Source: Prototheca cutis
Lineage: Eukaryota > Chlorophyta > Trebouxiophyceae > Chlorellales > Chlorellaceae
NCBI GenBank assembly: GCA_002897115.2
Contig: BCIH01000003.1
Location: 149,954 to 193,664 of the forward strand
Direction of reading: 5' to 3'
Length of the DNA stretch: 43,711 nucleotides
The notes below the pieces were generated by a model. That model had not been told where the DNA came from and ran no database searches. It saw only the letters and a list, made by a program, of their open reading frames with translations. The translations under genes and the position numbers were made by a program. Below, piece after piece: positions 101 to 43,711 of this stretch. The first letter of the stretch is position 1; each line of letters opens with the position of its first letter.

Positions 101-1848
101 ATTCGGCCATTGGAGGAGGCATACAAGTTTGGGCACTTTTTCTCGCCGTTACTGGCGGAAGGAGACTTTGAGGCAAAGCCCAGCGTGATGCTGCTGGGCC
201 AGTACTCTACAGGCAAGTCCACTTTTATCAAGTTTCTGCTTGGCCGCGAATACCCCGGCATCCACATCAGCCCCGAACCGACAACGGATCGGTTCGTCGT
301 GGTCATGCACGGTCCCGAGGAGCGGCGCACACCCGGCAACACTCTGGTCGTGCAGCCGGATAAACCATACACGGGTCTTGCTCAGTTTGGCAACGGGTTC
401 CTGTCAAAGTTCGAGGCGGCCTCCATCGACAACCGCCTGCTTGAAGAAATCACGCTGGTGGACACACCGGGCGTGCTCTCAGGAGAAAAACAGCGCATCG
501 AACGGACCTACGACTTTATCCAAGTCTGCGGCTGGTTTGCCTCACGCTGCGACCTCATCCTCTTGCTCTTTGACCCCCACAAGCTCGACATCTCCGACGA
601 ATTCAAAGCGGTGAGGATCATGATGTGGGGGGGGGGGGGGGGGGGGTGTTACATATGGCACAACATCTGGACCTTTTGCCCAGCATCGCCTTCAAGACTT
701 CTTGCTTAAAATCTTACCTCTCCACTTCCCAAACCCCGAACACCTATGCCACAGGTGATCAGCACGCTCCGGGGTCACGACGACAAGGTGCGAGTGGTGC
801 TGAACAAGGCGGACTCGGTGAGTCAGCAACAGTTGATGCGCGTCTATGGCGCACTCATGTGGTCGCTGGGCAAGGTGTTTCGGTCGCCCGAAGTGTGCCG
901 GGTCTATATTGGCTCCTTCAATGCCGGGCACCCCATCCGTTCGGACGTGAACCCCGAGTGCAAGCCGCTGTTTGAAAAAGAGCAAGAGGTGAGCGATTTT
1001 TGGGGGAAGGTGGTTGGGATGGAGTCGGAAGGGGGGCCTGAGATCCATCGAGCACCCACCATCTTGAGTCATCTCCTGTCTGGCATGGCCGGTTGATCCA
1101 ATCGATCCTCGAGCAATTTCTGCTCAAGTAATTCCATCCAGCGATAAAAAGACATCTCCCCCCTCCTCCTCAACACACACAGGACTTGCTCCATGACCTG
1201 TACGACATTCCCTCCCGCTCCTGCGACCGAAAAGTGAATGAATTCGTCAAGCGTGTGCGCGCGGCCCGCATCCACTGCCTGATCCTGGGACACCTGCGAC
1301 GCCAGATGCCGTACTTTGGGCAAAAGAAAGCGCAGGAAAAGCTTATCAACAACCTGGCCAATGAGTTTCGGCAGGTCCAGCGGGAGCATCACCTCCATGC
1401 AGGTGGGTTTAGGTAATGGATTCCCTCGAAGAGTACTCCTGCATGATGCCTTTTTTCAACAATAGAAAGCACCCCCACCCGCCCTTGTCACCGCAACAGG
1501 AGATTTCCCCGATGTGGATCGGTACCGGGACATCCTGTCGGCCTTTGACATCTCCAAGTTTCCCAAACTGGAAAAGTCCATGATTAAACAGGCACGTGGA
1601 TGTGGGGGGTTGGTAGAAGTAGTATGTCGTGCTGCAACAGGATTAATTGATGTGCATGCCTGCATGCATGCATATGGGGTGGTGTTTGCCAGGCGACACG
1701 CACGGCCTGCCTGCCAGTGTTGAGCCTCAGTGCGATGTTCTGAAACAGTGCAATCGACTCGCTCACAAGCATCATCTCGCAGATTGACGACGCCTTGTCG
1801 CTGGACATTCCACAGCTGGTGCGGCAGATGGAGAATCCCTACACATGA
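101..1848 (+). CDS. EHD: EHD-family dynamin-like ATPase (5' partial)
   Basis: Membrane-remodelling ATPase of the Eps15-homology-domain (EHD) family, which tubulates endosomal membranes. Five exons are visible: 101-610, 755-988, 1183-1402, 1500-1591 and 1783-1848 (stop TGA). They join in frame to 373 residues, and the gene continues 5' of the window. Seen: P-loop GQYSTGKST, the conserved EPTTD stretch, switch-II DTPGVLSG, the NKAD guanine-type motif, and the helical region ending near the FPDVDRYRDIL block. The protein ends at ENPYT with no C-terminal EH domain. Plant and algal EHDs carry the EH domain at the N terminus, so it is probably upstream. The last intron starts with GC (CAG|GCACGT) rather than GT, and the first visible intron has a 20-G tract 16 nt after its donor. 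The family call is firm; the exact final donor is inferred. Confidence 0.93.
627..646 (+). repeat. 20-G homopolymer in EHD intron
   Basis: Uninterrupted run of 20 G, 16 nt downstream of the GT donor at 611. It is one of a set of intronic homopolymers with consistent strand polarity. Its exact length may be unreliable in the assembly. Confidence 0.9.
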
Positions 1849-2136
1849 CACATGCCCGGCACTGCAGGACTGTGAGATTGGTTGAGCTTGGCAGGCACGT
1901 CCAATCGTCCCTGGTCACATGGCCTTTGACATGTGTCACAAGATTGTTCATGCACACACCACGTGCGTGGCATTGCCGCAACCCCTCTGTCCTAATGAAG
2001 GGGTGGGCTGGTGTGTAACGGGCCAGCCGCGGTTACACAGGCGCCAAGTTGGTTGCACTGGTATGTTCGCATTATGAACCATGAGCGAATCCAGAAAGAA
2101 GCGCTGCAGAGCAGATTGGCCATGCTGTTCCGTTTT
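1849..2136. other. Convergent intergenic region EHD / NOL8-like
   Basis: Spacer of 288 bp between two convergent stop codons. A TGTAA motif lies on the + strand (2014-2018) and another on the - strand (2033-2037), downstream of the EHD and NOL8-like stops respectively. TGTAA is the classical green-algal poly(A) signal, so these may be the two polyadenylation signals. The other genes here do not show it consistently. Confidence 0.35.
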
Positions 2137-4247: not shown

Positions 4248-4491
4248 GCCGCACCTATTCTCACATTACCACTGGGGTAATGCATACCTGTATACAATGG
4301 AATGTGGCTTAGCCAGTCATCCGCTGTAATCCCGCAGCTGTTTGGGAATGTTGCCCAGCCGCCAAGGGCGGCAATTTTCCACGGCAGGTCTCGGCATCCG
4401 GTGGTGCCACCCCCTCCAACACCAGCCTGATCCAGAGTATGAACACTCGATCCGCTCGTGATGCCCACCTGATTTTCTATGTTACATTTAA
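4248..4491. promoter_or_regulatory. Divergent promoter region NOL8-like / CIAO1
   Basis: Spacer of 244 bp between the two opposed start codons; it must carry the 5' leaders and promoters of both genes. No convincing TATA box is visible. Confidence 0.45.
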
Positions 4492-6538
4492 ATGACATCC
4501 TTGGATCGATTGACGGCCCTGCAGACCCTGGAGGGCCATGAAGATCGCGTGTGGCACCTTGCATGGTCCCCGAAAGGTGAGGAGTTTGGGAGGGCATTCC
4601 TGTGACCAGGTACGAGCCCCGCGATGCACGTTATACATCCCTCCATTCCTGTAGCAAAGGAAGTAAATGAAAAACCACGATGTAGGCGATATGCTGGCGA
4701 GCTGCAGCGGGGACAAGACTGTCCGCATCTGGCGGCCTCTGCCGGCCGAGCCCAGCTTCTGGCATTGCAGCGCCATCTTAGAGGACGTGCACTCCCGCAC
4801 CATTCGGTCGTGCTGCTGGTCCCCGGACGGGTCCCACCTGGCCACCGCCAGCTTTGACCGCACCGTGGCCATTTGGGAAAACTCGGTGGGTGATTGGGAG
4901 AGGCTGAACGTTGGTCGTGGGAACCCTGCGCCAGCGCTGCAGCTGGCGGGCAGGATGAGTGGTGCATCGCGTTGCATGCACACACCATTACGCCACATAG
5001 GATTCACCAGGGCCATGGCTGACTATTTCCAAATGATGCACACAATCCTCAACTCTTCTGTGCAGGGTGGGGGCAAGCAATGGCAGCTGGCGGCATCGCT
5101 CGAGGGCCACGAGAGTGAAGTCAAGGATGTGGCCTGGCACCCCGAGGGCAACCTTCTGGCCACATGCTCCCGTGACAAGACCGTCTGGGTCTGGGAATCG
5201 TCCCCGGGAGACGAATACGAAGTCGTAGATGTCAAGCATGGCCACAGCCAGGCAAGCTGCTTCGTGGTTCGAATTTCGGGGTATGACGAGCTTGGCAGAC
5301 TGATGGGAGTCCCCGCTGCACGGGCAACGCCATCAACCACCCATTCATCATTCTGCCAACAGGACGTCAAGGCCATACGATGGCACCCGAGGGGTGAAAT
5401 TCTCGCTTCGGCAAGTTATGATGACACTGTCAAGCTCTGGGTTGCTGACGATGACGAGTGGATCTGTGCCCAAACACTCTCTGGTGAGAGGGTGGATGCT
5501 GATGTGTGGTTCAAGGGCTGCGTGTGGGGGCAGTGGATCGGGGTGATGCCGCAAGCATGGGACAGAACTCGCCCGAAGGCAGCTCTCGGTGCCGCTTGTG
5601 GCATCCAGCAAGCAGCTGGGTCCCATCTCGTGGGGACCATAGGCTTTCACTTGGGCGCCAATCTACCCCCCATACAGGTCCGGGTATCGGCCATGATTCC
5701 ACAGTCTGGGACCTGGCATTCGAGCCCAGCGGGGGCCATATGGTTTCGTGCAGCGACGACTGCACTCTCAAATTTTGGATCTGCAGCCCCAGCCGCAGCG
5801 GAGGTGTGGCATGGATGAAAGAGTCCCTGATCGATAGGAAGAAAAGCCTGCAACGTGACTGTTGTGACAAGGACCCCGCCGTTTGTTGGGTGGAAACAAT
5901 GCATGGCTGGTGCTCAGGTGTCGCTGCAGGAAGCGCTGACCGAGTTCCTGTCCCCCTTACCCTGAGACCCCCCCCCCCCCCAACACCCACACACACACAC
6001 AGATGGTCCGCTGTGGAAGCTGGTGACCACGGTGAAAAACAGTCACACCAGGACGATCTTTTCGGTGGACTGGTCACCTGATGGACGGTGGGTGGCTTCT
6101 GCAGGCGGCGACAATGCCATCTGCATCCATGCGTTCAACACCGCAAGTCTGGAAGGAGACCGACCTGCCGCAGCATCTCACGAGGGGCAGAGGGATGCCC
6201 ATAGCAATGGTGTCGACACCGCAGCACAGTGCTCGAGCAATCATCAGGATCACGAGCCCATGCAGCGGAGAGATGGCACGGAGGCGACGCCGCAATTGCC
6301 GCACGTGTCAGGTGCAAACTCCCCTGCCCCGCAGGCCTCGGTGCGGGAGTTGTTCATGACTCAGGCCGTGCCCCAGCCGGCCGTTCGAGTACAGCAGGTG
6401 TACCGCCAGTCCACAGCGCACCCATCCGACATCAACTGTGTCCGGTGGCACCCGTCCATCCCTGGCTTGCTTGCCTCTGCCGGGGACGACGGCTCCATCC
6501 GGCTGTGGCAGTTTGGTGGATCCGCAGCCGCCGAGTGA
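4492..6538 (+). CDS. CIAO1: CIAO1/Cia1-like WD40 protein, cytosolic Fe-S assembly
   Basis: Seven-bladed WD40 subunit of the CIA targeting complex, which delivers iron-sulfur clusters to cytosolic and nuclear apoproteins. Exons: 4492-4576, 4686-4885, 5066-5251, 5363-5483, 5678-5803 and 6003-6538, giving 417 aa (human about 339). Blade signatures match CIAO1 in order: LASCSGDKTVRIW, LATASFDRTVAIW, LATCSRDKTVWVW, LASASYDDTVKLW, MVSCSDDCTLKFW, VASAGGDNAICIH and LASAGDDGSIRLW. The extra length is a roughly 80-residue low-complexity insertion in the last exon between blades 6 and 7. Intron 3 is a GC-AG intron (CAG|GCAAGC); the protein alignment across it (HSQ joined to DVKAIRWHP) leaves no GT alternative. 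Intron 5 has a C14 tract and (CA)n before its acceptor. MMS19, a partner subunit, is encoded about 22 kb downstream. Confidence 0.95.
5968..5981 (+). repeat. C14 tract before CIAO1 intron 5 acceptor
   Basis: A C run followed by a short (CA)n stretch and then the acceptor CAG at 6000-6002. It replaces the usual T-rich polypyrimidine tract. Confidence 0.85.
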
Positions 6539-6879: not shown

Positions 6880-8532
6880 CTACACACCAGGGAGGTCCGC
6901 ACAGGGCGGTGCCACACGCACGAGCTCGCAGGCAAACCCCTCAGCCGCCGCCGCAGCCTGCAGCTCCCCCACCTGTGAGGGACCCTTTGGCAGCGCCACC
7001 ACTACGCAACCTCCCGACCCTGCAAACGTGGCACCTAGTCCCAGCGAGTCGGCCAGGGCGACCATACGCAGCGAGCGCTGACTCAGCGCCCCATCGCCAT
7101 ACAGCCGCTGCCGAAGCGCGTGATTGGCGCGCATCGAGCGTTCCAGGACTGACACGCGGTCGTCCTCTCCTGACCCTGCTGCCTTCGTCGCGAGCATCTG
7201 AGACATCGAAGACGCCAGCGCCGCAAGCTCGGCCATGCCGGCCCTGTGGCATGGCTGGGGTCGGTCTTGGTGCATTGAACAGTCCAATCAAGACACAGAA
7301 ACAGCTGTGCATTCTGCTTGTGCAAAATCAGCAGGGGAATGAGATCCTTTCAATAACATCACTCACCCGGCAGACCCCCCCCCCGACCTATGCCCTAACA
7401 CACCGGATCTCGGCGGCGCCGTCCAGCCAGCGCTGCTTGACGCTGCTGTGCACGCTGCCGCTGTCCTTTCCAGAGGGCTGCGAGTCGTACACCATCGCTA
7501 GGCTTGGCAACACATCTGGTGATCCATTGGAGGGTCAGACATGTGGGTTAGGATTGTTTCTGCTCAAGCAGCGTACCAGCGGGGCATTGGCTCACCAGCA
7601 CGAGGANACCTGGCCCCATTCCTCCCGAACAACGAAATCAATCACAAATCCACCAACACACAACACACCGGGGTCTAAAGCTCTATAGACGTGTCTGGAT
7701 GGATCAGCAAAGTCCATGAACAGCACGCCACCATAGGTCTGGATGACGCGGTCCTGGGGCCCCGCGGTGATGCCCAGTGAGGCCTCCGCCTGCAGCGCCA
7801 GCCGCGGCAGCTCGTGCACCGACAGCACAGTCTCCATGCTGTGCACGCTGCGCAGACACCGCAGCGCGGCCAGCGTGATGGCCGATGATCCAGCCAGGCC
7901 AGACTGCCGCGGAATGTTGGTCTCGTATGACAGCGCAAAGGTCCGGTTGGGCAACGCAATGCCCTTGGCGGTGCAGTGCTCGTGGAAGCAGTGGCAGGCA
8001 GCCTGGTGGTGGGGTTGTAGGCCAACATGGGGATGGGCAAGGACGAGGGTAGCCTCTCGGTTCTTCAAGATTCAACCACACGTTTCCTGGATTACAACAC
8101 GGTCCACCGTCGCTGCACATGCCCACAGACGCACCATGATGAGACGCACGCCGCCATAGTAACCCCAGCCTTTTACATGGCCCGACAGCGCATCCAGGGA
8201 GCTGAATGTGCTGGGGTCATGCAGCGGGGAGGGGCGCAGCTCCACCCTATCGCTGGGCTCGGCAGTCACCTGTGGGCGACGAGTTCGGCGTGCACGCACT
8301 CAACTAGGGGCCCCTAGACACCCTAAGACTCGCACACGCCCGATGCGATCCATCTCCCCGAACCAATGCATTGTGCATTGAAACGTAATACCAGACCAAC
8401 CTCGGCCCAGAAGTTGGCGAGCGATACTGCGATCGTTGCACCCTGGAAGCCATCACTGGGGTTGCCCAGCAAGCCGATCCTGGCATGCACCCGGCATCGC
8501 ACTGGCGCGTCCAGGGGCGAGGCCTCCCCCAT
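6880..8532 (-). CDS. GLCAK: Glucuronokinase (GHMP kinase)
   Basis: Phosphorylates D-glucuronate at C1, feeding UDP-glucuronate synthesis by the myo-inositol oxidation/salvage route of plants and algae. Exons on the minus strand: 8532-8401, 8269-8135, 8002-7669, 7515-7404 and 7243-6880; 358 aa, the usual family length. Seen: N-terminal ARIGLLGNPSD, the segment LHDP...FSSLDAL followed by GYYGGVRLI, GHMP motif 2 as PRQSGLAGSSAI, the VKQRWLDG segment and C-terminal motif 3 FAGSGGCVV. All follow Arabidopsis GlcAK in order. The donor side of intron 4 carries a sense-strand G10 tract (7375-7384 as C on +). No targeting peptide is evident, so it is probably cytosolic. One N at 7607 lies in an intron. 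Confidence 0.94.
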
Positions 8533-9010
8533 TTTCTTGACGTACAGTCATAGCATGACCAGTGGAGATTTGTTTCATGGACTTTGCGAGGGAGGCAAGC
8601 CCCTGGGAGATGCGTACGTTGTCCCTGAAACCCGAAGATGCCACACCATGAGGACTGTTAACCCCGTGGATGATTGCCAGCTTCCTGCCAGCCCGCCATT
8701 GCATACTGTGCCCTCATTTCTCTCCATGAACGCTTAGAATGGGCACAGAAAGCAACAACAACGGTACACTTATTTCAAATTTATTTACCCTGCAAGCTGC
8801 CTGGCGGCTGCCGGCATTCTCGTTGTTCTGTGTGTGTTGGGGGGGGGGGGGTTCCACCTCATTCCCATGGCTCCTGCCCGTTACAGCGGCAGTGACGCCG
8901 GCATGAGGGCCTCCCCCGCGTGAGCCTCCCCCCTTCACAGCACACACGCAACAGACAGTCCATGCACAGGCACGGTCACGCGGGCCCGGGGCACAAGCTG
9001 CATGTCAATT
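8533..9010. other. Intergenic region between glucuronokinase and PDH-E2
   Basis: 478 bp upstream of the glucuronokinase start and downstream of the E2 stop (both minus strand). It holds a G13 tract at 8839-8851 but no recognisable gene. It should contain the glucuronokinase promoter and the E2 3' UTR. Confidence 0.4.
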
Positions 9011-11074
9011 TCACAGCAGCATGGACGCCGGATCCTCCATGTACGCCTTGAACGCCTGGAGCCACTGCGCACCCAGGGCGCCGTCGACGACGCGGTGGTC
9101 GCAGGACAGCGTGACCTGCATGAACTGCGCCTCCTCGAACGCGCCCGTGGCAGCCGACTTGATGACGCGGGGCTCGGTGGTCCCGACGGCCAGGATGCAG
9201 GCCTGGGGCGGGTTGATGATGGCGGCAAACTGGGACACGCCGTACATGCCCAGGTTGGAGATGGTGAAGCTGCCTCCTGTAAACTCATCGGGCCGGAGCT
9301 TGCCCTCCTTGGCCTTGGCCGCAAGGGACTTGACGTCGGCCGAGATGGCAGCCAGGCCCTTCAAGTCGGCGTCGCGCACGATGGGCACCATGAGCCCCGC
9401 GGGCGTCTGCACCGCGACGGACACGTCGACGTCATGGTACTCACGGATGAACTCGGGGTACCACGACGCGTTGACCTGTGGGAATTTACGCAGCGTCAGC
9501 GCCGAAGCCTTGATCACCAGGTCGTTCAGGGACAGCTTGCCGCCGCCAGATGCAGCCAGCGATGCGTTAAGCGACGCCCTCAAAGCCTGCGCCGCGTCGA
9601 CGCGCACGCTGACCGTCAGGTAGTAGTGCGGGACCTGCTGCTTCGACTCCAGCAGACGCCGAGCCGTCACCTTGCGGATCTGGGTGTTCTGCACATCGGT
9701 GTAGCCACCTTCAGCAGCGGGGGCCGGGTACGCATCTGCAGGGCCGCCCGGGGCAGCAGCCCCGGTAGCAGGAGCAGCAGCACCGGACTTGATCAGGGCC
9801 TGCACATCCACGGCAGTAATGCGGCCGTCCTCGCCGGATCCGGCCGCGCCCTCCAGGGAGACGCCGGCCTCGGCGGCCAGACGCTTGGCGTAGGGGCTCG
9901 CTCGGATGCGGCCGCCTGCCGACGCGGGCTTCTTGGCGGCGGCGGCAGGCTTCTTGGCGTCGGCCGGNGCGGCGGCGGGTGCAGCCTCAGGCTCAGGCTC
10001 AGGCTCAGGCTCGGCCGCAGCAGCGGCACCACCTTCGGCATCGGCGGCCGAAAAGTCGGCAAACGGAGCAATGTCCTCGCCCTCCTCGACCAGCACCACC
10101 ACGGGGCTGCCCACGCTCACGCCGCTGGTGTGGGACGGGAGCAGGATCTTGGCGACCACGCCCTCCTCCTGCGACTCCCAGTCCATGCTGGCCTTGTCGG
10201 TCTCGACCTCGGCCCACACATCGCCTGGGGCCACGGTGTCGCCCTCTTTCTTCTTCCACTCCAGGATGTTGCCCTGCTCCATCGTCGGGCTCAGTGCAGG
10301 CATCGTCAGCACCTGGTGTGCAGGCCAGGCCTTGGCTGCGGCAGCCTTCTTCTTCTTCTTCTTCGGCTCCTCGGATTTTTTCGGGGCAAGNGCCTCGGCC
10401 GTGGCCGCCGCAGGTGCAAGTTTGGAGTCCTCGGCACTGGGCTCCCAGTCCTTGAATGCCGCCACATCTGCAGAATTGTATTGTATTTTTGTTGTGTTTG
10501 TGTGTGGGGGGGGGGGGGGGGGGGGGGGGGGGGGATTGGCCGGCATGGACAGCGGAACGGGTCGGGTGCTAGGGCTGCACCGTAGACTCTGTCAACCACT
10601 CCCCACACAAGACTCCCCAGCCCTCCCCCCAAGAGCAACCTTACCGTTCTCGTCCTCACACAGGACGGCAACGACTTGGCCCACTGGCAGGTCCTTGCTG
10701 CCATCGCCCTTGATGATCTTGGCCAGGAATCCTTCCTCCTGCGACTCCCACTCCATGCTGGCCTTGTCGGTCTCGACCTCGCAGTAGACATCACCCGGGG
10801 CAATGCTGTCGCCCACCTTCTTCTTCCACTCCAGGATGTTGCCCTGCTCCATGGTGGGGCTCAGGGCAGGCATCCGCAACTCAGTGTGCTCGGGGTAGCT
10901 CGCAAACCCCCGCCAGGCACCCAGACACAGCCGGGCACGCAGGCCGACCACGGGCACCACCGCGGCCTGCGCCAGGCTCTGCGCGCCTGGGGCGGCCTTG
11001 CCGGCATCCGCCGACCTTGCCAGGCCATGTGCCAGCGCACGGGCAAACAGTGGGAGCCGCTGCCGCATCGCCAT
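9011..11074 (-). CDS. Pyruvate dehydrogenase E2, dihydrolipoamide acetyltransferase, mitochondrial
   Basis: Core subunit of the mitochondrial pyruvate dehydrogenase complex; moves the acetyl group from lipoamide to CoA. Two exons, 11074-10645 and 10467-9011; 628 aa. Order: Arg/Ala-rich N-terminal presequence without acidic residues (about 1-65), lipoyl domain 1 (about 66-140, lipoyl-lysine in [11 protein letters not shown]), KKKKKK linker, lipoyl domain 2 (about 185-260, [11 protein letters not shown]), Ala/Pro linker, peripheral subunit-binding domain ([17 protein letters not shown]), and the catalytic acyltransferase domain ending with the active-site motif DHRVVDG. The single intron falls between the two lipoyl domains and contains a 29-base homopolymer (G on +, C in sense), 38 nt upstream of the acceptor. 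Two single Ns (9968, 10391) lie in coding sequence, leaving two residues undefined. Plastid E2 proteins have one lipoyl domain, which favours the mitochondrial form. Confidence 0.96.
10506..10534 (+). repeat. 29-G homopolymer (C tract in sense of PDH-E2 intron)
   Basis: Longest uninterrupted homopolymer inside the window, within the PDH-E2 intron. The E2 transcript sees it as a C tract ahead of the acceptor at 10468. The reported length could be an assembly estimate. Confidence 0.85.
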
Positions 11075-11689: not shown

Positions 11690-13965
11690 ATGGCGACCGC
11701 GATGACCTCCGCCAGTACTCCGGCCCTGGCCGGACGGCAGAGGCTGCAGCCCTGTGCTGGCCCCCGGACCACCATCTTCCGTGGCGTGCACCTAACTCCG
11801 TCCGTTTCTGGGTCTCGGTTCGCCGCGCCCAAGCAATCCATCCCGGCCTCGACCCGCCGGGGGAGCCTGTGCGTGGCCGCTGCCTCCGCCAAGCCCAGTC
11901 CCCCCTGGGGCAAGCGCCCGCCAGCAAAGTGCGCTGGGAATCTCAGCGAAACAGGCATGCTCGCAGACGCTTGGTGTCTTACATGCTCAGAGTGTATCCT
12001 GGCCACGTGCCTTGCAGGCTTGTGCTGGAGGATGGCTCCGTCTGGGTTGGCACCTCCTTTGGCGCCACGGGCACCCAAGGTCAGTTGTGTGTGGGGGGGA
12101 GGTGTGGGGACCGCTGCTTGCTTGCCCTGAGATGATCGGAAGGAATGGGCGCCTTCCAAGTAGATGCATGGATGATCCCTGGTTTCTGGGTCCTTTGGTT
12201 GCTGGGGGGCTAGGGTCCGGGTGGGGCCACTGCAGTCTGGCTCCGCATCGCTGTGCCATCTGGGGCGTCCCCCACACACACATGTGCATACACACATGCA
12301 AATGCCTGCATCCAGTGCCATTCCTAGACCCATCAATGCTTTTCCGACACACCTGTTCTCCCAAACCATCACTGCAGTGGGGGAGGTGGTGTTCAACACG
12401 TCACTGACGGGGTACCAGGAGATTCTGACCGACCCCTCGTACCGTGGCCAGTTTGTGTGCTTCACCTACCCACACATTGGCAACGTGGGCATCAACCCCG
12501 AGGACATGGAGTCGGAGCGCGTGCACCTTGGCGCGGCCATCATCCGCGACCTGTCCTCTGCCGTGTCCAACTACCGCTCCACGCAGACGCTGGACGCGTA
12601 CCTGAAGAAGCAGGGCGTGATTGGCATTGCCGACGTGGACACGCGTGCCATCACGCGGCGTCTGCGCGTGACGGGCTGCCTCAACGGCGTCGTCACCACC
12701 GACATGGCGACGCCCGACTCAGAGCTCCTGGCGCAGACCAAGTCCTGGAGCATCGTGGGCAAGGACCTGATCAGCGAGGTGACGTGCGCCGCGCCCTACG
12801 AGTGGCGCGACCCCACGGGCAAGGAGTGGGAGTTTGCGCCCGAGGCCCTGGCCGCGCGCGAGGGCGGCAAGCCCTTCCACGTTGTTGCCTACGATTTCGG
12901 CATCAAGCACAACATCATGCGCCGCCTGGCATCCCACGGCTGCCGCATCACCGTCGTGCCCGCTGATTTCCCGGCGTCCGAGGTCCTCAAGATGAACCCC
13001 GACGGCGTCTTCTTCTCCAACGGCCCCGTACGTTTCTTCTTTCTGGGGATGTTTTGGACCAAGGGGTGTATTTATGTGTCCGTTTGTTGGTTGCCAGACC
13101 TCCATGCATACATACACACATCGAATTTCCACAACAAGCCTGAATGAACAACAGCACATCCCTTCAAATCCCCCAACACCATGCAGGGTGACCCGAGCGC
13201 GGTGCCATATGCGGTGAAGAATGCCGAGGAGATCCTGGGTCAAAAGCCCGTGTTTGGCATCTGCATGGGTCACCAGGTCCTGGGCCAGGCCTTTGGCGCC
13301 AAGACCTTCAAGCTCAAGTTTGGCCACCACGGTGGCAACCACCCCATCCGCTTCACCCCCACCGGTGCGTGCGTTTGGTGGTGATGGGGGGGGGGGATAT
13401 ATACGAGGAAACGATTGTGCTGCACTGTCGGTTGTCTTGATTGAGCACGTTCAGCCTGGACCAGGCGACACTGACCACGTCGTCGCCATCCACCCCCCGA
13501 TGTCCCCAAATCCTCCCTCCCGTAAATAACAGGCCGCATCGAGATCAGCGCTCAGAACCACAACTTTGCCGTGGACCCCGACACGCTGCCCGAGGAGGTG
13601 GAGGTGTCCCACATCAATCTGAACGACGGCACCTGCGCGGGCATGCTCTACCCCACCAAGAAGGCCATGACCATCCAGGTATGTGGATTTATGGCGGGAG
13701 GACTTTTTTTTATTTCCTTTTTGAGAGGGGGGGCAGCAGATGTGCGTGTGTGCATGACCATCAACGGCAACGGTGGTTCCACGCCGATGTACTGCGACCA
13801 CACCTGGTTCCCTCTCTCAAGAGCTCTGCACCAAAATGCCCCCCGCAACCTGCACCACCACTGCAGTACCACCCCGAGGCCTCCCCTGGCCCACACGACG
13901 CCGACATCTGCTTTGCCCAGTTCATCGACATGCTCAAGGCAGAGCGGCAAGCTGTGACGGCTTGA
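11690..13965 (+). CDS. carA: Carbamoyl-phosphate synthase small (glutaminase) subunit, probably plastidial
   Basis: Class I glutamine amidotransferase subunit of carbamoyl-phosphate synthase. It hydrolyses glutamine and channels ammonia to the large subunit for pyrimidine and arginine synthesis. Exons: 11690-11928, 12018-12079, 12378-13027, 13187-13364, 13533-13678 and 13867-13965; 457 aa. Residues 1-78 are Ser/Ala/Arg-rich, as in a transit peptide. Then [16 protein letters not shown], the CarA N-terminal domain ([17 protein letters not shown]) and the GATase domain with nucleophile Cys in [12 protein letters not shown] and the His-Glu pair in YHPEASPG. Bacterial CarA usually has GICLGHQ, so Met replaces Leu next to the nucleophile. 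The mature part matches family length. Intron 4 has a G11 tract after its donor. Confidence 0.95.
13386..13396 (+). repeat. G11 tract after CarA intron 4 donor
   Basis: Run of 11 G about 20 nt after the donor at 13365. It belongs to the polar homopolymer set. Confidence 0.85.
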
Positions 13966-25507: not shown

Positions 25508-25538
<31 letters not shown>

Positions 25539-27137
25539 CGCGCGCGCGCGCGCGCGCGATGCGACAGGCAAGAGCATGGAGTCCAGAGTCGAGCGGGCGG
25601 GTGAGTGGGCACTCGAACGCAGCACCGCGGCTGCCCATCTCACAAAATCAATGAAAACATTTCCTGGCAGCGCCTCCCATGCTCGCACCAGGTCATTTGA
25701 AAGATGGCTGGAAGCCAGGGCGGCCGAGGGGCTGGACGAGCCAACATCGTCGTCTCGCTGGGCCGCCAGAGCGCCCAGCAGTGTGCCGGGGGAGTTGATG
25801 CCCAGGCTGGGCGTCTGGCCGCCTGACCGCGCAAACGTGTCCTGCGGGATTATGTGATATGTTGTAAGGCTCCCCCCATCCAACACAACAGCCAGAAGCA
25901 GGTGACCTGAAGAAACACATTTCAATCACCAAAACAAAGATCTGGCAGAACACACTTACTTTGACCAGGTCGGCAAGCATCTGACTAATCGCCGAGGAGA
26001 CGCTGTCGTAAGGGAGTGAGGGGTGTGACCCCGGTGCGCTGGCCTCTGCCAGGGCATGTGCCAGCATGCTGGCATCCACCACGCCACCGGCCGTCCCGGG
26101 GATGGCCAACGGCATCGTCGCCTGCTTTCCACGACCGCCAACGGCAAAGGCACCAGCTGCTTGCCCAGCAGGCCCCGTGGGATCGGCGCCCTTCCCTGCC
26201 GCAACAGTGCTCTCCAGCAGGCAGATCACGCGCATGATCAGCTCGTTATACGATGCGTTGCCAATCGCCGCGGTGGTGGCCACGTCCTGCGTTTGTGAGG
26301 GGATGTTGAGTGGTGATGGTGGTGGTGTTGTTGTTCGGGGGGGGGGGGGGGGGGACCCATCACATTATGGTGGGGAAAACAAAATCCCCCATCCTCCATC
26401 CCTTTCCACTGTCCGCCTCAGAAACAGTCTCGCTCACCTGGGGGTCGGTCAGCCAGCCGTGCACCAGCCGGACATTCAGCAAGTCGAAAATGCCGGTCTC
26501 GCGCGTGAACTGCAGTGGGTTTTGCGGGAAAACTTGGCGGGTGACATGCATGCCAGAGAACACTGCACGCCGAAGAGCCCACCCACACCAACCGGCATAC
26601 CAGCACCACCGTCAACCAGTCAGTCTCACCTCAAAGCCATCGATGGAGTTGAATCGGACGTTGACATCGATGCCCGTGGTCAACTGCGGCAGGAGTTGCA
26701 TCCCATCCGCCATCTGCTGGTGGAGAGCGGCCTGCTCCTCGGGGCTGCCGCCCTCCGGGGAGCTGGCATCTAGGAAGTATCCTGCCAGCAGCTCCACTAC
26801 CTTGTCCTGCGAGGGGAGAACAAGGGGATGGCGTGCATCTCATTCGAGTGCAATGGCGTGTCGCTGACGCCCATGGACCTGGGCAGGCCACGCCAAGAGG
26901 CAGGTCTCCCAGGCATGCCAGTGCAGGCCTGCCTTCGGTCCCCCACCCTCCGCTTTCAATCGGACGTACCGAGGAGACCTCCCCGACGCCAGCGGGCAAG
27001 TCCAACCGTGATCTCAAGAATAATACATTGGCTATGGCGATGAGCGGGCAGGGCCCGTTCACATCCTGCAGCAGGATGGGCACCGAATTGCCCTGGAACG
27101 AAATGCGCTTCACTTGGTACGAGCCAGGGCCAGCCAT
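23659..27137 (-). CDS. MINDY: MINDY-family deubiquitinase (DUF544) with C-terminal CaaX box
   Basis: Cysteine protease of the MINDY family, which trims K48-linked polyubiquitin. Eight exons on the minus strand: 27137-26970, 26806-26630, 26509-26438, 26286-25960, 25841-25644, 25481-24901, 24640-24462 and 24182-23659; about 741 aa. Seen: catalytic Cys in QDVNGPCPLIAI, TGIDVNVRFNSIDGFE, FDLLNVRLVHGWLTDPQ, SYNELI, LTYHGL, catalytic His in the FFRNNHFNVL join, and FMLVTDQGYQFERDVVWE, all in MINDY-1/2 order. A large Ala/Gly/Ser-rich insertion of about 300 residues (exons 4-6) interrupts the catalytic domain. After it comes an MIU/UIM-like helix (DADFALALQLQQEED), then a basic K-rich tail and terminal CSIM, a possible farnesylation box. 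Intron 6 contains the N gap. The exon 7 donor is either GC at 24461 or GT six bases later; both keep frame. Confidence 0.9.
24685..24811. other. Assembly gap of 127 N
   Basis: Lies entirely inside MINDY intron 6, flanked by GGT/GGGT-rich sequence on one side and (CA)n on the other. The gap probably hides simple repeats; no coding sequence is expected to be lost. Confidence 0.95.
25508..25558 (+). repeat. (GT)n followed by (CG)n alternating tract
   Basis: About 26 bases of GT repeats run through GCAC into about 18 bases of CG repeats, all within MINDY intron 5. Uninterrupted purine-pyrimidine alternation of this kind is prone to form Z-DNA. Confidence 0.85.
26337..26354 (+). repeat. G18 tract (C tract in sense of MINDY intron 3)
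   Basis: Located on the acceptor side of the intron spanning 26287-26437, so the transcript has a C tract upstream of the acceptor. Confidence 0.85.
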
Positions 27138-28273: not shown

Positions 28274-31200
28274 ATGGCTGAGGATCGGTCCTGGGGACGC
28301 GCCTTGGCGGCGCTGGTGGGTCAGGAGTTAGCCCAAGACGAGTTCGACAGGGCCCTGGACGCGCTGGTTGCGGCCATTCGCCAGGAGGGCGTGACCATAT
28401 CGGCCCTGAACACCAGCCTCGGGGCCTACCTCACCTCCAGCAGCAACAACCAGCGAGGAACAGGCCTCACTGTCCTGGCAAAGGTTGGCACGCAATGGTG
28501 GCATGTGTGTGTTGTGACGAGGTGATCGCATGTGTGCTTCTGGATGCTGGTCTCTTGCTAGGATGGGGTCTCGACTGCTCATGTGCATGCCTCACTTTGT
28601 GCCACATGGCATGCCAGCATTGAAGAACACTCCCGCTCCCATCTGTCCCAGGTGATCTCCGCTTGGCCGGAGATCTTAACGACGCAGCCAGAGGCACAGC
28701 ACACAGCGGATTTCTTCATTGCCCGGCTGGTCGACTGGTGCGAGGGACTGGCTGCAAAAGGGGGTGTCTTGTATGGAGTTTGCTGCCAATTATTTGGACA
28801 CACGCCTGCAATCCCTTGCAACGTGTGGGATGCTGCAGGTGTCAACACTGCTGAGCAGCCCCAAACCCTTCCCTCCCCCCCCAAAAATGCACAGGCCTTC
28901 TCTGAACGGTGCCCTGTTGGGGTGCCTGGTGTTCCTGCAAGAACCTCAGGAAACGGTGCAGCTGTCGCCACAACAAGTCGTGGACATTGCCACCAGCCTC
29001 ACCAAGAATGTGTTTGTGCAGCATCTGGCACAAGAGGAGCGCCGGCTGGCCTTTGGCTGCCTCCTCTGCCTGACGCAGGTACGATGTCATCTTTGGGGGG
29101 GGGGGGGTAGTTGATATATAGTGCAATGGAGATCATTGCTTGCTTGCTGGGAATCGTGTGCCCTACGAGAGCCAGATGACTGTTGTTACTAAAGCACCTC
29201 AGACAACCACTACGGCCTGACCTTCCAATGCCCCCCTGCCACCCCCCCAATCAACAAAAACACAGAAGCATGGTCAAGCTGTTCTGGATGCCGGGGTCAA
29301 ATTGTGGGACGCCTGCGTGAATGCCATGGACGGCGAGCGTGACCCGAGGTGCCTGCTGCTCGCCCTCGACTTGGTCACTACTCTGGTGGAGCTCTACAGG
29401 GAGCAGCCTGCCGACAGCCTGTCAGCTGCAGACTACGAGGTGCGTGTCCAGTCCAAGGGTGGTCTTTCCCTGAGCAATCCCCTCCTCCCCACTACCTGCG
29501 CAAACAGTCACACACAACACATTCTGCTCGCAAGCAAGCCATCTGTAGGAGGGGTGCGAGGAGTTGTTTGACGTGCTATCTTGCTACTTCCCTGTCAGTT
29601 TCAAGCCGCCGCCGGGCAGCCCACATGGCATCACGCGGGAGGACATCTTCACACACCTCTCAGCTGCCCTGCTCTCGACACCGGCCTTTCTTCCACACCT
29701 CGTCCCGATAGCACTGGAAAAGGTCGCCCCTGGCACCAGGTGCGATGTTTGGTGATGGTGGCAGGGAGCTCTGTATGTGAATGCCGGAGCCCAGTCGTGG
29801 AATGAGCATCTGTCCAGCGACTCGTGGAGGAATGCAACTCGGGCGACATGCAAGAAATCCCTGGCAGAACATAGTAACCATGACCCCCGGGAACCCCACC
29901 ATCTCCTCTCCCGACCGCAGCAAGGAAGCCAGGGGCGATGCCTTGGCACTGCTGACAAGCATTTCCAAGAATTTTTCGAGCGCCGAGCTGCTGGGCCTGG
30001 GCAGCCCAGATGCCGTTGTCACGCAGCTCAAGACGTTCATGCTGGGGAGCATTGACACTGCAGAGATTGAAGCAGCCGGGCAGCGTTCTGCTTCTGTTGT
30101 CGAGCCAGGCATGGAGCAGGCGGCCACTTGCCTTGCGTCCTGGGTGCGTCACTCCAGGACGTCACTGCTGATGTGCAATGATTCTTGCTTGCAGCTGCCG
30201 CCTGCATTCATACACATACCCAACACACAGACTGCTCAAAACTATTCTGAAGCAATCCATGTGGTGACGGCTGACTCGACCGTTGCACATTCAAAACTTC
30301 CCCACTCCAAACAACCCCTTTTTTTCCCCAGGTGTCTGCGCTGTCTGAGGCTCAGCCCAGCCTTGCCCGGGAGCTGCTTGAAGACACGGGCGTGCAGTGC
30401 ACGCTGTCTTGCATGCAGCGCCCAGGCAGCACCCCGGAAGTCTTTGACCGGTCCGTCATCCTGGTCCAACGTGGTCTCTCCGTGGCCGCGGTGGTGAGGA
30501 TCTGGGGAGGGGCGTCCTTGCTCTCTTGTCTGTGCAGAGGAACGCTCTGAAAGGAGGCGGTTGTGATGGCGGTTCCGTGAATGGACAAGGGAATGAATGG
30601 TGCATGGGCAGATGCCATTGGGAGGGATGGCGTTGGACCAGACATGCTGAACATCTGTCGACCGAGTCCTCTTCGTCTCAAGAAATAGCCATGTTGACAA
30701 GCAAGCCAATCTTCCTCTTGGCCGCATTTCCNCATGACAAGCAACTCCCACCGAGCACCGTGCAGGCGTGCATGGCCGACCCCACGCTGCAGACACCGCT
30801 GCTGGCGCAATGCGCAGCAGGCACGGATCTTGCGCAACCGGACACGCTGTTGCTCGAGCGGCAGTGCCTGAGCTGGGCTGCTGCAGCCCAGCTGGTCCGT
30901 TTCTTCCTTTCCTCCAGTGCTACTGCCAGCGAGACCGAGCTGGCAGCCGGATTGCAGCCGCTGTGGGCGCGCGCACTAGAGCACCTCCTCGCTCCTTTTG
31001 TAGGTAGTGACGAAGTGGGTGCATTGTCTGCGGACGAGAACGAGGATTCAACCGACAACGTAGCTGAAGANGAAGAAAACGCAGAGGAGGCCCTGGATCC
31101 CTGGACCGTGCTGACCTTCCCGTGCACCCGCCGGCAACTGACTGCGGAACTGCATGTCTTTCTGAGGCTGGTTCTGCAAGCACCTGCGGTGAAGCTGGGA

Positions 31201-37991: not shown

Positions 37992-40900
37992 ATGAGCTCG
38001 ACAGTCGCTGTGCTCGGCGCCCTACTGGCGCTCACGCTGGCGTCGCCCAGTGCTCTCGGCGTGACCGCGAGGACCCTGAAACAGGCAGGCCTGGTGATCT
38101 GGCATTGGGGGAAGGGAATGTGATCATGGGTGCAGTAGGGTTTGCTTGGGTCTTGACACATTCCCTGGTCAAATGAAGGTCCCCCAACACGCATGTGCCT
38201 CTAAACCCACGCCTGTGCAGAAGTCGACGGCCTCCTTCCCCTCTGTGGATGTGGCATTCATCTTCCAAAGTATGCCAGTGGGTCCGGTGTGGCGGGCCTT
38301 GGAAGCGGCCGGCCTCGACGGGGGCTAGCGCCAAGGCTTTGTGACGCACATTTGTGCGGTGAAACAAAACAGTTCGTGAAATCACAAACGACTCCCACAA
38401 CGTATTGGCACAGATGGATCACTGGATTCTGCATCCCCGGCCAACGCCTATGCTGGCATTGGGCACAATGTGGAATGGGTGGAGGATACGGTGTTTTCCT
38501 CTGTGCTGCAATGCAATGCGGTGAGAACAGAGGAGGGGTCTTGGGGGTGCGTACCTTGTGTGGCATTAGGTGTGATTGCGGGGTGCGGGTTGTCTGCCAT
38601 GAGAACAACAACTATGGTTGGTCCTGCTGTGCGCTTTCTGCACCGCTGCCTGTCGATGTGGAGCACCCTTTGCTTGTGCTCCCGAGTCTCTCTGGTGCCA
38701 TGTGACAAAAGCAAGCTGCTAGTTTTGCCGGCCCCCCTCCCCCTCCCCCCCACCACACCCCCCCACCCCACCACACCCACCCACTACCNCACCCACGCGG
38801 ACTGCTGCATCACAAACCCCGCTCCACTGCTCCCCGCCCATTGGCCAGGACGAGAACAGTTACGTGGCAATCCCTGGTGTGAGCTACGGGCAGGAGGGGG
38901 CGTGGGCCATGGCCGTCTGGGTCAAGTTTGACCAGAAGCCTGGCACTGGCCTCGGCTACATTCTGAGCCAGAACAACTCTGGCAACGCCGACGCCGGTCT
39001 CAGTCCAGACACGGTGGGTGGAATTTTTCTGTGGCAAGGGCAATGAGTCGGGGTGTGTGCAGGGTCGACGATGCTTTGGGGGGTGTAGCTCTGTGTGGCC
39101 AGCAAACTCGCAGAAAAACTTGCCCAATAACCGCCGTCGATGAATCTCTGAATTCCCCCCCAAAAAATGCAAGGTGGGGTTGATGGTGCCAGCCGAGGAG
39201 AACCCCAGCTTTGGGCAGGTGCTTGGCATCGTGCACGATTCGACCGACCGCCAGGCATCGGGGTCCAGCGTGCCCTTTTACATCGGGTCCAATGGCTGCA
39301 TCTCCCAGATAGACTGCGCCAATGCCACGGACTCCATCGTCACTGAGGTGTGCCTGTAGTTGGGTGGGGGTTGGGAGGATGAATTTTCGGGCAATGGGAT
39401 TAACGAATTGAGTTACTCGGCATGTGGGCCTCCCATCCCATCCCTCGCGCATTGCAACGCTCTCGTCCACTTTATTGCAACCCAACCCCAACGCAAATAC
39501 AGTCAAATGCTTCGTGGCACCTTGTTGGTCTGACGACGCTTCCCGGCGGGGGCAAGGGTTACCAGCTGTATGTGGACGGCCTGCTGGCGGGGGAGGCCTC
39601 GGGCAATGGGACGTTTGTTGACTATGTTGGTGGAGTTCACACGGCAAACGGTGGTGACGCCATGAACATGACGGGGGACTTGACACTGTGCACGCGGGCA
39701 GACTTGAACGACACACGAGCGTTTTCGGGTCAGATCGCGGCACTGCTTATCTGGAACGAGTCCCTCACCGCCGAAGACTGGATGGCGGTGTACCAGAACC
39801 CAAACATGCTGGACAAGTTCCAGGCATCACCTTCGCCGGCTGCTGCGGGAACGACGACGACAACGGCGGCGTCTTACCCGGTCGCAGGCGCGTTCTTCCC
39901 ACTCGCATCTGGCAGCCTGGCGTCGGCGGTGCCAGTAAACACGTACAGCGGGATCGGCACCAACACCACATGGACGGACGACCCCGTTCTGGGCAACGTT
40001 CTGACGTGCAACGAGAGCGACGGCAGTCACGTGACCATCCCGGGCGTCAGCTATGGCCAAAACGGGTCCTGGGCACTCGCGTTCTGGGCCAAGTGGGACC
40101 TGGATACCAGCGCCAACGTCAGTTACATGCTCAGTCAGAACAACTCGGGCAACGCCGATGCAACCCTCAGCCCAGACCTGGTGCGGATTTGAGAGGGTTT
40201 TCCATGTCCTTGATTTTTTTAGTTCATGTTTCTTTGGGGGGGTTGTGTGTGGGGGTGTGGGGGGGGGGGGGGCCCACTGAAACCTGGGGGATATAGGCCA
40301 TGCATTCACAATACTGTCTGCAATGACTAAACCGCCAGCACCACAGAGTACACCAACCCAAATCAAACACACTCAAACAGGTGGGACTGTATCTGCCGGA
40401 CCAGTCCAACCCTAGTTTTGGCGTGGTTCGTGCAATTGTGCACGATTCAAATGACCGACAGGCCTCGGGATCCAGCGTGCCCCTGTACCTCGATTCGAAC
40501 GGCTGCATTTCAGACGTCAACTGCGCCAACGCCAAGAACCTGACGCTGTTCACGACGCCGCCGGCCTGGCACCACATCGGCCTGACGACGTTTCCAGATG
40601 GCGGTGCCGGGTACCAGCTCTACATCGACGGCGCCCTGTCCGCCGCGCTTGACCCCGGAAACTACACCGACTACCTGGGTGGCGTCCACACCGCAAATGG
40701 CGGTGGGCCCATGAACCTCACGGGAGATCTCACCCTCTGTGCCCGCTCCGACCTCGACGAAACGGTGCGGTAATAGGGCTTTTGCTTTTCAGGGTTTCTT
40801 TTTTCTTTTGGGGGGTTTGCGGGGAGTGCAGGGTTTGGGCTATGGAGACCTGGGAGCAGTCCCGCCCGGGAAGGAGGCAAGGGGTTAGCAGGGAATAAAG

Positions 40901-41003
40901 GTGCAGTCTGGTGAGAGGGAGCTACAACTGCACAGTAGGGTGGGCACGGATGGGAAGGCATGCAGGCCAACAGAGGTGGCCAGCCGTGTGCGGTGCCCTT
41001 CTC

Positions 41004-41039
<36 letters not shown>

Positions 41040-43711
41040 GTGATGGGGCTTGACTGGCCATCGGCAAGACGTCAGACATTTGTTGTGGGTGACTAGCATG
41101 CAAGGGGGAATAAACAAAAGGATGAAAGTGCCCACTGTACGTCCCGTGGCAGCGACTCTGGGTACCACAGCCTGTCAGTGTCCTCGGGACAAGTGATGAA
41201 GCTGGCCCATGCCGGGTGGAATGTCAGCAACAGTCGACAGCCAAAATCTCCCACCCAGCTTAACAGCAACGCAAAACATCGGAGCCCCAACACATAACGA
41301 TCTCTCTTTCTCACGCCCGTGCAGCGTTTTTACTCCGGGATGCTGACCAACCTTATGATTTGGAACCAGAGCCTGGGAGCCTCGGATTTTGCTGCGATCT
41401 ACGAGGCGGTGGGTCCAAAGTATTGAGTGTTGCGTTGGCCCAGCTCGCACGGCGTAGTGCGTCCCAGAACTTTTGCACTGCAATGAACCAATGCCGTGGT
41501 TATGTGTGCTTTGGACTTGGCCTCTGTTCACCCTGTCTGTGTGACGACGGTGCCGCCGACGGATGAAGCGGAGATGAGGATGCCGGCAGATGGCAGTCGT
41601 CCCATGGACAGGGGAGGGAAAGCGTGGACACTGGAAACTTCCCTCCCTCCGTTCATCCCCCCACCAGCACCAGATACATGCCAGATGTTGTGATCCCTGC
41701 ACACCTCCGTTCTCTCTGCAGGGTGCACAGTATCTGGGAGGTCTGCCATCACCCCCACCCTCGGCTGCGGGTTCACCTGCGCCCAGCCCANNGGCGGCGT
41801 CGCCCTCACCCAGCGTCGCTGCATCGCTGTCCCCAAGCCCGGTGGCATCCCCCGTCGCCGGCGTGGCGATCGTCCAGGGCCAACCCGTCTGCACGCCTGG
41901 CAGCGCCATTCAGGGTCTGAACAGCCTGAGCAGTTGCTACACGGGCTACGTCTGTGCGCCCCTGACGCATGCCCAGATCATGCAGTACCTGCCGGACTAC
42001 AGCTCGCTGCCGGAAGGCAGGATTGGCATTTGCGCCTATTTGCCCGCGGGCAACCTGATGCCCAATGCCTCCCTCGTCCCGGTGCCCAGGTACTGTGTGG
42101 ATGAGTGGAGATGTCAGCATTATGTAATGGGCTATGGTGATTGTCATGGATGCAAGGTGAAACCAGCCCATGCACCAAAATAAACAAACACCAAAACACA
42201 CCCCACCCACTCCCACTCTCTCAATCACCCCACCAACTGTGCAGCGTGTTTTATCCGCTGAACACCCAGTCGCTGCAGAGCTTCCCNCTGCCGGATTACA
42301 GCGGGGTACAATCTGGGTCGGTGCTGGAGTCCGACCCTGTTTTCGGCGCGACGCTGCGGTGCGGCGGCGGCGCCTCGGACGTCGTGGGCCTGAGCACGCC
42401 AAACTTCACGGCATCGGGTGCATGGAGCGTNAACGTCTGGGTTAGAGCCGACAACCTCACGGGCACGGGGCTGGCATATGTCTACAGTCAAATTGGGCCG
42501 TTGACCAATCTTTCCAACTCGGGCTGGGACCCCGACCAGATCCAGATTTACTTCCCAGAAACAGGCCACCAGGCATACGGCGTGCTGCGCGCGTATGCCC
42601 GCGATGGCTCTGACAACTACACCGGCGCTGCATCGCAGACGTGGCTGGATTCTGATGGCGCGGTGTCGGTCAACACAGCGCGGGCTACTCCTGGCTCCGT
42701 GGTCAACGGCAGCTGGCACATGGTGACCCTCACCACGCAGCCTGCGGGGGGGAAGGGTCTCCGGCTCTACATCGACGGCCAGTTGGTGAACGACATGACG
42801 GCGAATGGAACGTACTACTCAGATGCGGGCGTGGCGATGCAACCCACGGCGGGGCTGCCCATGGACCTGAATCCTGTGGCCGTGCTCTGCACCCGAGCCG
42901 ACGGGCCTTCGGATCGCCAATTTGATGGACAGATTGCATTCTTGGGGCTGTATGACGAAGCTCTGACGTCAGATGAGGTGGAGACATTGTATGCCGCCGT
43001 GCAGCCCACGCTGCTTGCAGTCGGCACCACGGCCTCTGCACCTGCCACCGAATCCGGGTTTGTCGCAGTCGCGACGCCAGGTGCGTCAGTTGTATGGGAA
43101 GGGAGGATGAAGCCATGCGAGCAGGTGGGGTTGCTTTGGCCTCGACTCACCTTATCGAATGGTCGTCCCTGACGACTACCCCCCCTACCCGATCGTTAGC
43201 CAACACCAGGAGCCCAACCCCCTGTTCCACGGAACGCTGCAGGCTCCAATCTCACCATCTCTAATGAACAGAGCGAGAATGGCAACCCCTGCGTGTTTCC
43301 CTTCCTCTACAATGGCCAGCTCTATACCAGCTGTGTCACCATCGACGACAGCGCCTACTGCCTTGTGTGTTGGGTTGCTGGGTGGAGATGGGGTTCAGTT
43401 CTCCTTTTGCGATTGACTGCAGGTAATTATGATACACATTCAAGTTCTTTGCGGCATCAACTCAAAGCACCCCCTCAAAAACAAACGCTCCCTCTGCAGG
43501 TGGGCACGGGTGTGATGGAGCTGTGCAAGACTCAACCGACGCCCGCGCCCGCAGGCGAGTCGGCAACACCGGTGGCCAACCGGACAACTGTGAGCGGTGA
43601 ACAGTGTGTCTTCCCTGCGACTTTCCAGGGTCAGGGGGGGGGGGGGGGGGCCATCTACAATGGCCTGCCTATCTGCCAGGTACAAGAGAAGAAAGGGGGG
43701 GGGGGGGGGGG
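37992..43711 (+). CDS. Secreted multi-LamG / fibronectin type II-like domain protein (3' partial)
   Basis: Probable cell-wall or extracellular protein. Exons: 37992-38093 (or to 38084), 38221-38269, 38414-38520, 38849-39013, 39174-39347, 39503-40180, 40381-40764, 41325-41408, 41722-42089, 42245-43080, 43243-43364 and 43500-43679; it continues beyond the window (about 1080 aa seen). A signal peptide (MSSTVAVLGALLALTLASP) leads. Three LamG/concanavalin-like domains follow, at about residues 45-305, 320-578 and 702-960, each with repeated motifs such as GVSYGQ, SQNNSGNADA, QASGSSVP, YQLYVDG and DLTLCTRADL. A Ser/Pro/Ala hinge and a Cys-containing block separate domains 2 and 3. Two FN2-like modules start with NPCVFPFLYNGQLYTSC and GEQCVFPATFQ. 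Many N-x-S/T sites fit secretion. The ligand is unknown. Confidence 0.82.
40259..40272 (+). repeat. G14 tract in LamG-FN2 intron 6
   Basis: In the 200-nt intron 40181-40380, nearer the donor than the acceptor and preceded by other G-rich stretches. Confidence 0.8.
41011..41033 (+). repeat. (GA)n microsatellite in LamG-FN2 intron 7
   Basis: About 11 GA units in the 560-nt intron 40765-41324, the longest intron assembled in this window. The rest of the intron shows no open frame of interest. Confidence 0.85.
43634..43650 (+). repeat. G17 tract inside an FN2-like coding exon
   Basis: Seventeen G at 43634-43650 read in frame as Gly residues between CVFPATFQ and AIYNGLPIC. It is the only homopolymer of the set placed in coding sequence. 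Confidence 0.7.
43695..43711 (+). repeat. G tract at window end, after donor at 43680
   Basis: The window ends inside a G run that starts 15 nt after the donor following FN2-like exon 12. This repeats the donor-plus-G-tract arrangement of the EHD and MMS19 introns. Confidence 0.75.

Follow-up and report, generated by a model that had tools for sequence, protein, structure and literature searches.

Long G and C runs in the introns of a green alga follow a strand-specific gradient of base composition

The window, the whole stretch of 43,711 nucleotides (nt) at C3:149954-193664 (contig BCIH01000003.1 of Prototheca cutis), holds a series of protein-coding genes whose introns contain pure runs of G or C, and the placement of these runs is our subject: on the sense strand, G runs lie after donors and C runs before acceptors. 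In seven complete or partial proteins, Pfam domains agree with the EHD, GHMP kinase, lipoyl (PDH-E2), SPOUT, MINDY, MMS19 and WD40 genes. A first-pass annotation of the window supplied the gene labels CIAO1, glucuronokinase, RING-H2 and LamG-FN2; for the first two, Pfam gave WD40 and GHMP kinase respectively. Rfam and tRNA scans of the window returned no matches. The CarA protein, predicted by splicing six exons, aligns to algal CarA except over its variable N-terminus, with 76% identity to Auxenochlorella (the top-scoring named match) and 70% to both Nannochloris and Parachlorella; at partial query cover, identity was 75% over 88% for Helicosporidium and 77% over 85% for Botryococcus, and a closer match was an environmental protein (85% identity over 85%). 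This similarity probably places the DNA in a trebouxiophyte, chlorellalean green alga and led us to reject Salpingoeca as its source, and the comparison with animals drawn in the first-pass annotation misfits an organism whose CarA is nearest to that of trebouxiophyte green algae among the named matches. All 14 runs named in that annotation are present in the window, as follows.

72 to 82, plus strand: C11 in the EHD gene, 18 nt before an acceptor ending at 100
611 to 754, plus strand: intron of the EHD gene (EHD_N and Dynamin_N domains), with G20 at 627-646, 16 nt after the donor
5968 to 6002, plus strand: WD40 gene (labelled CIAO1), C14, then a CA repeat, then an acceptor placed by reading
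7244 to 7403, minus strand: intron of a GHMP-kinase gene (labelled glucuronokinase), with sense G10 at 7375-7384, 19 nt after the donor
8839 to 8851, minus strand: intergenic run, G13 on the plus strand; the minus strand reads C13-AACACACACAG, which is acceptor-like
10468 to 10644, minus strand: intron of a PDH-E2-like gene (two lipoyl domains), with sense C29 at 10506-10534, 38 nt before the acceptor
13365 to 13532, plus strand: CarA intron, with G11 at 13386-13396, 21 nt after the donor
19036 to 19219, minus strand: intron of a SPOUT methyltransferase gene (RlmH-like), with sense C18 at 19048-19065, 12 nt before the acceptor
20632 to 20673, plus strand: gene labelled RING-H2, donor-like GTGCGC near 20632, with G18 at 20656-20673 next to an ambiguous base
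26287 to 26437, minus strand: MINDY intron, with sense C18 at 26337-26354, 50 nt before the acceptor
29079 to 29265, plus strand: MMS19 intron, with G13 at 29095-29107, 16 nt after the donor
40181 to 40461, plus strand: intron of the gene labelled LamG-FN2, with G14 at 40259-40272, 78 nt after the donor
43634 to 43650, plus strand: exonic G17 in a predicted exon of the gene labelled LamG-FN2, 44 nt before the G17 at the gap edge
43680 to 43711, plus strand: donor and G17, the run at 43695-43711 being truncated where the window stops; an assembly gap of 1972 bases follows

Introns were predicted with a gene finder blind to the runs, in that these were masked, coding statistics were 3-periodic, the non-coding model was strand-symmetric and the splice-site matrices were short (donor -3 to +6, acceptor -5 to +1). 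It had been claimed that all 12 intronic runs of the window obey the rule of G after donors and C before acceptors. Ten do so directly in the predicted introns and the remaining two by sequence reading only: at 5968 the gene finder skipped the acceptor near 6002, after C14 and the CA repeat, and chose another, and at 20656, where the donor was placed by reading 24 nt before the run, it merged the upstream stretch into a longer intron. Both failures look, in our judgement, like gene-finder errors, each run fitting the rule on reading. The intron that holds the C11 at 72 is broken by a gap of 5126 bases immediately to the left of the window and that of the run at 43695 is also interrupted by a gap, so that one end of each is visible. 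For the CarA intron with the run at 13386, the spliced protein is ungapped across the junction when compared with four homologues. The two runs previously listed as exceptions, at 8839 and 43634, do lie outside predicted introns; the former, acceptor-like on the minus strand, is perhaps the acceptor of an intron in an untranslated region, and the latter is near a gap, the stretch 43634-43711 being possibly misassembled. An additional C9 at 23562 is intergenic by the gene model and shorter than the cut used for the first-pass annotation.

The polarity of the runs is real and wider than the window. The analysis covers 19.9 Mb, in 23 contigs, of one assembly of one species, from which a non-random sample of 290 kb was taken, comprising C3:93001-333000 (240 kb around the window) and C1:300001-350000 (50 kb of a second contig). 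Its gene models, tallied over 258,455 readable bases, contain 439 introns (median 164 nt, donors AG/GTGNGT, acceptors YGCAG/G), which make up 33% of the readable sequence; a confidence filter kept 147 of the 439. For Auxenochlorella, introns are given a mean length of 179 bp (PMC12636532). The readable bases include 69 G or C runs of at least nine bases, 58 of them intronic, six intergenic and five exonic. Read on the sense strand, the intronic runs comprise 30 G runs in the donor half and 26 C runs in the acceptor half, with one C run in the donor half and one G run in the acceptor half, so that 56 of 58 obey the rule (binomial p of about 1e-14 against 0.5). Within the window 10 of 12 obey, in the rest of C3 37 of 37 and on C1 nine of nine, giving 46 of 46 outside the window. 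A count by intron half and strand had been proposed in the first-pass annotation, and in this sample it shows G and C to be unequal at the two intron ends. The runs reach 40 bases in length; their nearest edges lie 9 nt from donors (sense G) and 12 nt from acceptors (sense C), and the sense-C runs lie 12-66 nt upstream of acceptors, except for one misassigned at 284. Eight of the 58 sit in introns containing N.

Polarity is shared by repeats of other kinds. T runs of at least eight bases number 11 in donor halves and none in acceptor halves, A runs of at least eight bases none and 11; among 339 introns, GT repeats of at least five units were found eight times in the donor half and never in the acceptor half, and CA repeats of at least five units never in the donor half and 12 times in the acceptor half. 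The runs had been read earlier as a possible splicing signal. The link to splicing is supported, as where a run lies and which strand it is on depend on donor and acceptor, for genes on either DNA strand and also on a second contig, but the part that attributed it to G and C tracts as such is not, since the rule holds equally for long runs of T or A and long repeats of GT or CA.

What these repeats have in common is a smooth gradient of base composition across the introns. In 387 introns with runs included, G is at 0.38 and T at 0.29 at 15-20 nt after donors, C is at 0.41 and A at 0.23 at 15-20 nt before acceptors, and the crossover between the two is smooth. With runs of at least eight bases masked, introns of 120-260 nt still have a GC skew between +0.42 and +0.44 over their first tenth and between -0.42 and -0.56 over their last, crossing zero near mid-intron. 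Of the 147 confident introns, 93% have more than half G/T at the 5' end, and in 82% A/C makes up more than half of the 3' end. We simulated introns from a position-dependent, second-order composition trained on the same introns with runs of at least eight bases removed; for the 337 introns of 100-400 nt without N, this produced 5.7 runs of at least nine bases, 0.3 of them misplaced, against 47 real runs with none misplaced. As the simulation reproduces placement but only 5.7 of the 47 runs, polarity comes from composition and the excess of runs from something else. The gradient thus accounts for run polarity, and the number and length of the runs probably come from replication slippage above a threshold of about nine bases. 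Runs of eight are without excess (four seen, 8.65 simulated), G or C runs of 4-6 are roughly as frequent as the composition model predicts, and it is above about nine bases that an excess of the slippage type appears (47 against 5.7). Relative to runs of 6-7 bases, runs of at least nine number 58 to 133 in introns, six to 23 in intergenic sequence, which is not significantly fewer than in introns (p=0.38), and five to 62 in exons, which is far fewer (p=0.0001).

Word counts that use no gene model show a similar asymmetry over the 19.9 Mb, given here as counts on the two strands. T8G8 occurs 226+225 times and its mirror G8T8 2+5 times (451 against 7), and (GT)5G8 155+141 times against 3+3 for its mirror; A8G8 occurs 2+2 times and its mirror 1+0. 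Within 30 nt after AGGTRNGT, which is a donor-like word and not a proven donor, G10 was found 49+48 times (97) and C10 6+1 times (7), and T8 15+24 times (control 8+12) against 3+1 for A8 (control 2+3), the last two corresponding to 36 and three distinct donor sites. The flanks of the sampled runs were readable for 66 of 69; over 20 bases on the G strand, they have 43% T and 11% A on the 5' side, compared with 25% T and 21% A on the other, and G/T is more abundant 5' of the run in 46 cases, less abundant in 13 and equally abundant in seven. A telomere-like or 3'-tailing origin of the T-to-G runs was considered and set aside, as their polarity tracks the donor and acceptor sides of introns.

The exons that adjoin these introns carry a skew of their own. 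At third codon positions GC skew is -0.19 at 10-20 nt upstream of donors and +0.19 at 10-20 nt downstream of acceptors, and it has faded by 50 nt; at 15-29 nt it is -0.24 before donors and +0.20 after acceptors (151 confident introns). The sign therefore changes at the exon-intron border of donors, from -0.24 in the exon to +0.43 in the intron. Where no competing splice site lies within 60 nt, the values are -0.28 (58 donors) and +0.07 (70 acceptors); the reversal in exons is robust on the donor side and not robust on the acceptor side. Because the sign of the skew alternates along the transcript, it fits poorly with a transcription-linked mutation bias and fits selection on the discrimination of exons from introns.

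We propose that introns of this alga are marked by a strand-specific gradient, kept by selection on splicing, of which the long G and C runs, extended by slippage, are the visible tail, and we give this explanation a probability of about 0.55. The runs would then be the slippage-prone tail of a keto (G/T) to amino (C/A) gradient and not G or C tracts as such. Introns are G/T-rich beyond the donor and C/A-rich ahead of the acceptor, and the exon immediately upstream of the donor has the opposite G-C sign; G and C runs that reach about nine bases would lengthen through replication slippage, and long runs would survive beyond the first nine or so and the last 12 or so bases of the intron. Since the core splice sites occupy those bases, runs would be tolerated only outside them. 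With less certainty, we suggest that selection on splicing may keep the gradient as a composition code that tells short introns from exons, and that such a code would operate rather than one RNA stem tailored to each intron. The gradient itself probably belongs to the marking of short introns for removal. If this is true, a mirrored base code can mark intron ends instead of a U-rich tract in a lineage far from fish, and in gene prediction for GC-rich algae the strand of a run would reveal both the strand of the gene and the end of the intron. Selection on pairing, selection on factor binding and neutral repeat growth predict different, testable outcomes in this system. Among the open-licence literature matches listed, no title or beginning of an abstract described such a pattern for a green alga.

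Several observations weigh against this explanation. All gene models are computational predictions and the counts rest on predicted introns. When runs of at least eight bases are taken, 61 of 66 obey the rule and five of 66 break it, the three additional failures being runs of eight bases in introns with predicted lengths of 470, 593 and 855 nt; shorter repeats stray more, with 25 right and three wrong for GT repeats of at least four units, 30 right and two wrong for CA repeats of at least four units, and 101 right and 20 wrong for G or C runs of 6-7 bases. The filter that gave the 337 introns for simulation (100-400 nt, without N) excluded both rule-breaking runs. The gradient is weak in introns longer than 260 nt, though their models are less reliable, and first introns are weaker than middle introns (G/T 0.610 and A/C 0.539, against 0.674 and 0.653). 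In exons, the reversal after acceptors drops to +0.07 to +0.08 in the first 30 nt of the 70 unambiguous acceptors. The word counts have weaknesses as well: the backwards control for G10 after the donor-like word is high (32+27; that for C10 is 4+10), and the acceptor proxy failed, as C10 was found before GCAGG 82+96 times (178; control 19+26) and G10 114+112 times (226; control 37+25). This proxy is uninformative because GCAGG is too short and too G-rich to represent an acceptor.

One alternative explanation, which we hold rather improbable, is that within each intron a G/U-rich 5' end and an A/C-rich 3' end pair in a bridging stem that brings the splice sites together, as in the AC/GT introns of fish. 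A review describes these as having a GT-rich 5' end and an AC-rich 3' end, together with the idea of a stem, and adds that their authors also suggested that repeats rich in G and C play a part in mammals (PMC7404189). The likeness is that complementary repeats of the GT and AC type lie at opposite ends (eight to none and none to 12, as counted above); the differences are that here the gradient runs across most introns examined, that mononucleotide runs are prominent and that intron-specific pairing tests are mostly null. End composition is complementary, predicted pairs between the first and last thirds standing at 0.290 against 0.176 in whole shuffles, but two-intron chimeras gave cross pairs of 0.289 and whole-intron folding equalled that of the chimeras (p=0.40). 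Own ends gave -28.8 kcal/mol and swapped ends -28.2 (p=0.17, 280 introns; p=0.11, 127 confident introns), so neither comparison found an intron-specific stem beyond that of mismatched ends; in a residual test, true pairs had a slightly lower duplex energy (p=0.037), which hints at the opposite. GT and CA repeats of at least four units co-occur in six introns against 1.71 expected (p=0.0039), which is one of six contrasts, the other five being non-significant (for G8 with C8, one seen and 1.77 expected; for GT5 with CA5, one against 0.24, p=0.22). Keto content at the 5' end correlates with amino content at the 3' end (rho 0.28, 337 introns), but this drops to rho 0.13 (p=0.12) in the 147 confident introns, permutation within genes gave p=0.22, and the correlation is nearly as high when the two ends come from different introns of one gene (rho 0.105, 396 non-independent pairs). 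As the intron-specific tests are mostly null, a bridging stem would act mainly as a population-wide effect of composition.

A broader form of this idea, to which we give similarly little weight, is that in most short introns the G/U-rich and A/C-rich ends may serve as a general code for bridging and intron definition that replaces the U-rich polypyrimidine tract. Any 5' end could then pair with any 3' end, an intron-specific stem would be unneeded and the G and C runs would be the strongest form of the code. Fish AC/GT introns reportedly splice without U2AF2, as Lin and co-workers are said to have described in 2016 in Genome Res. In the present assembly, a model of the U2AF large subunit matched neighbouring open frames at C13:352559-354003 (best E 2e-52); searched exon by exon, none of the 29 matches was above the curated cut-off, and the model also matched in two of 14 control genomes.

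Somewhat less probable again is accretion, in which repeats start from GT-rich donors and CA-rich acceptors, grow inward and decay, so that composition records repeat growth without function. Long GT and CA repeats do exceed the composition model at five or more units (eight against 1.1 and 12 against 1.4, respectively), longer introns have a higher G/T content at the 5' end (rho 0.30, p=0.0002) and the zero-crossing of the gradient lies near mid-intron in the 120-260 nt classes. However, A/C content at the 3' end shows no significant rise with length (p=0.12), and the near-expected number of G and C runs of 4-6 leaves little trace of decayed runs. Accretion also leaves unexplained the opposite exon skew before donors.

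The first-pass annotation had offered a G-skew mutation process tied to transcription as another possibility, in which transcription-coupled mutation or R-loops create an excess of G on the coding strand, and we now regard this as very improbable. The donor half of introns does have G over C and T over A, as would be expected of such a bias, but the acceptor half of the same transcript is reversed in sign within about 160 nt, third codon positions favour C in the exons ahead of donors, and middle and last introns show the gradient more strongly than first introns. A splicing-coupled strand asymmetry was reportedly described by Touchon and colleagues in 2004. Our data resemble such an asymmetry in the opposite skews of introns and exons, proposed to aid telling the two apart, and differ from it in that here the sign flips inside each intron. 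For human and mouse, introns are described with a single sign, T over A and G over C, the opposite skews of introns and exons are attributed to Zhang et al. 2008, and the idea of discrimination is mentioned (PMC10030826).

It is scarcely tenable that the C runs are merely polypyrimidine tracts and the G runs merely intronic G-triplet enhancers: C is enriched before acceptors, over the distances already given for the sense-C runs, and the motif CTNAC, a candidate branch site, is found most often 30-39 nt upstream of acceptors (29 of 159), but T is low before acceptors (0.18-0.20), A is raised and A runs of at least eight bases are confined to the acceptor side, unlike in a U-rich tract, and the T runs and GT repeats after donors are left unexplained. 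At 6-42 nt before acceptors, T is 0.18-0.19, A 0.25-0.28 and C 0.38-0.42; a C-rich stretch is therefore shared with the polypyrimidine tract, and here it is T-poor, A-raised and not U-rich. Intronic G-triplet splicing enhancers, of the hnRNP F/H type, lie near 5' splice sites. The sense-strand G runs near donors are like them in position and differ in being pure runs of up to 40 bases that are mirrored by C runs near acceptors.

A sequencing or assembly artefact is a very improbable source of the polarity, since an artefact would be blind to gene strand and intron half and yet runs on both strands obey the rule, and short runs and the base gradient carry the same polarity. The assembly is nevertheless affected by the runs. 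In the 240 kb of C3, gaps of at least 25 N are placed as follows.

C3:144828, 174638, 193665, 225856, 241541 and 327594: gaps of at least 25 N that adjoin simple repeats

Each of the six has such a repeat (GT/CA or a G/C run) on one side or both, which in three cases is a G or C run of at least 17 bases, and among the 69 runs of the sample six touch a single ambiguous base and three touch a gap. Exact run lengths and counts are uncertain in consequence, but the existence and polarity of the runs are very unlikely to be artefactual, and assemblies of genomes of this kind can break at intron ends. Single ambiguous bases number 105 in the 240 kb of C3 and 38 in the 50 kb of C1 and are perhaps heterozygous or low-quality sites.

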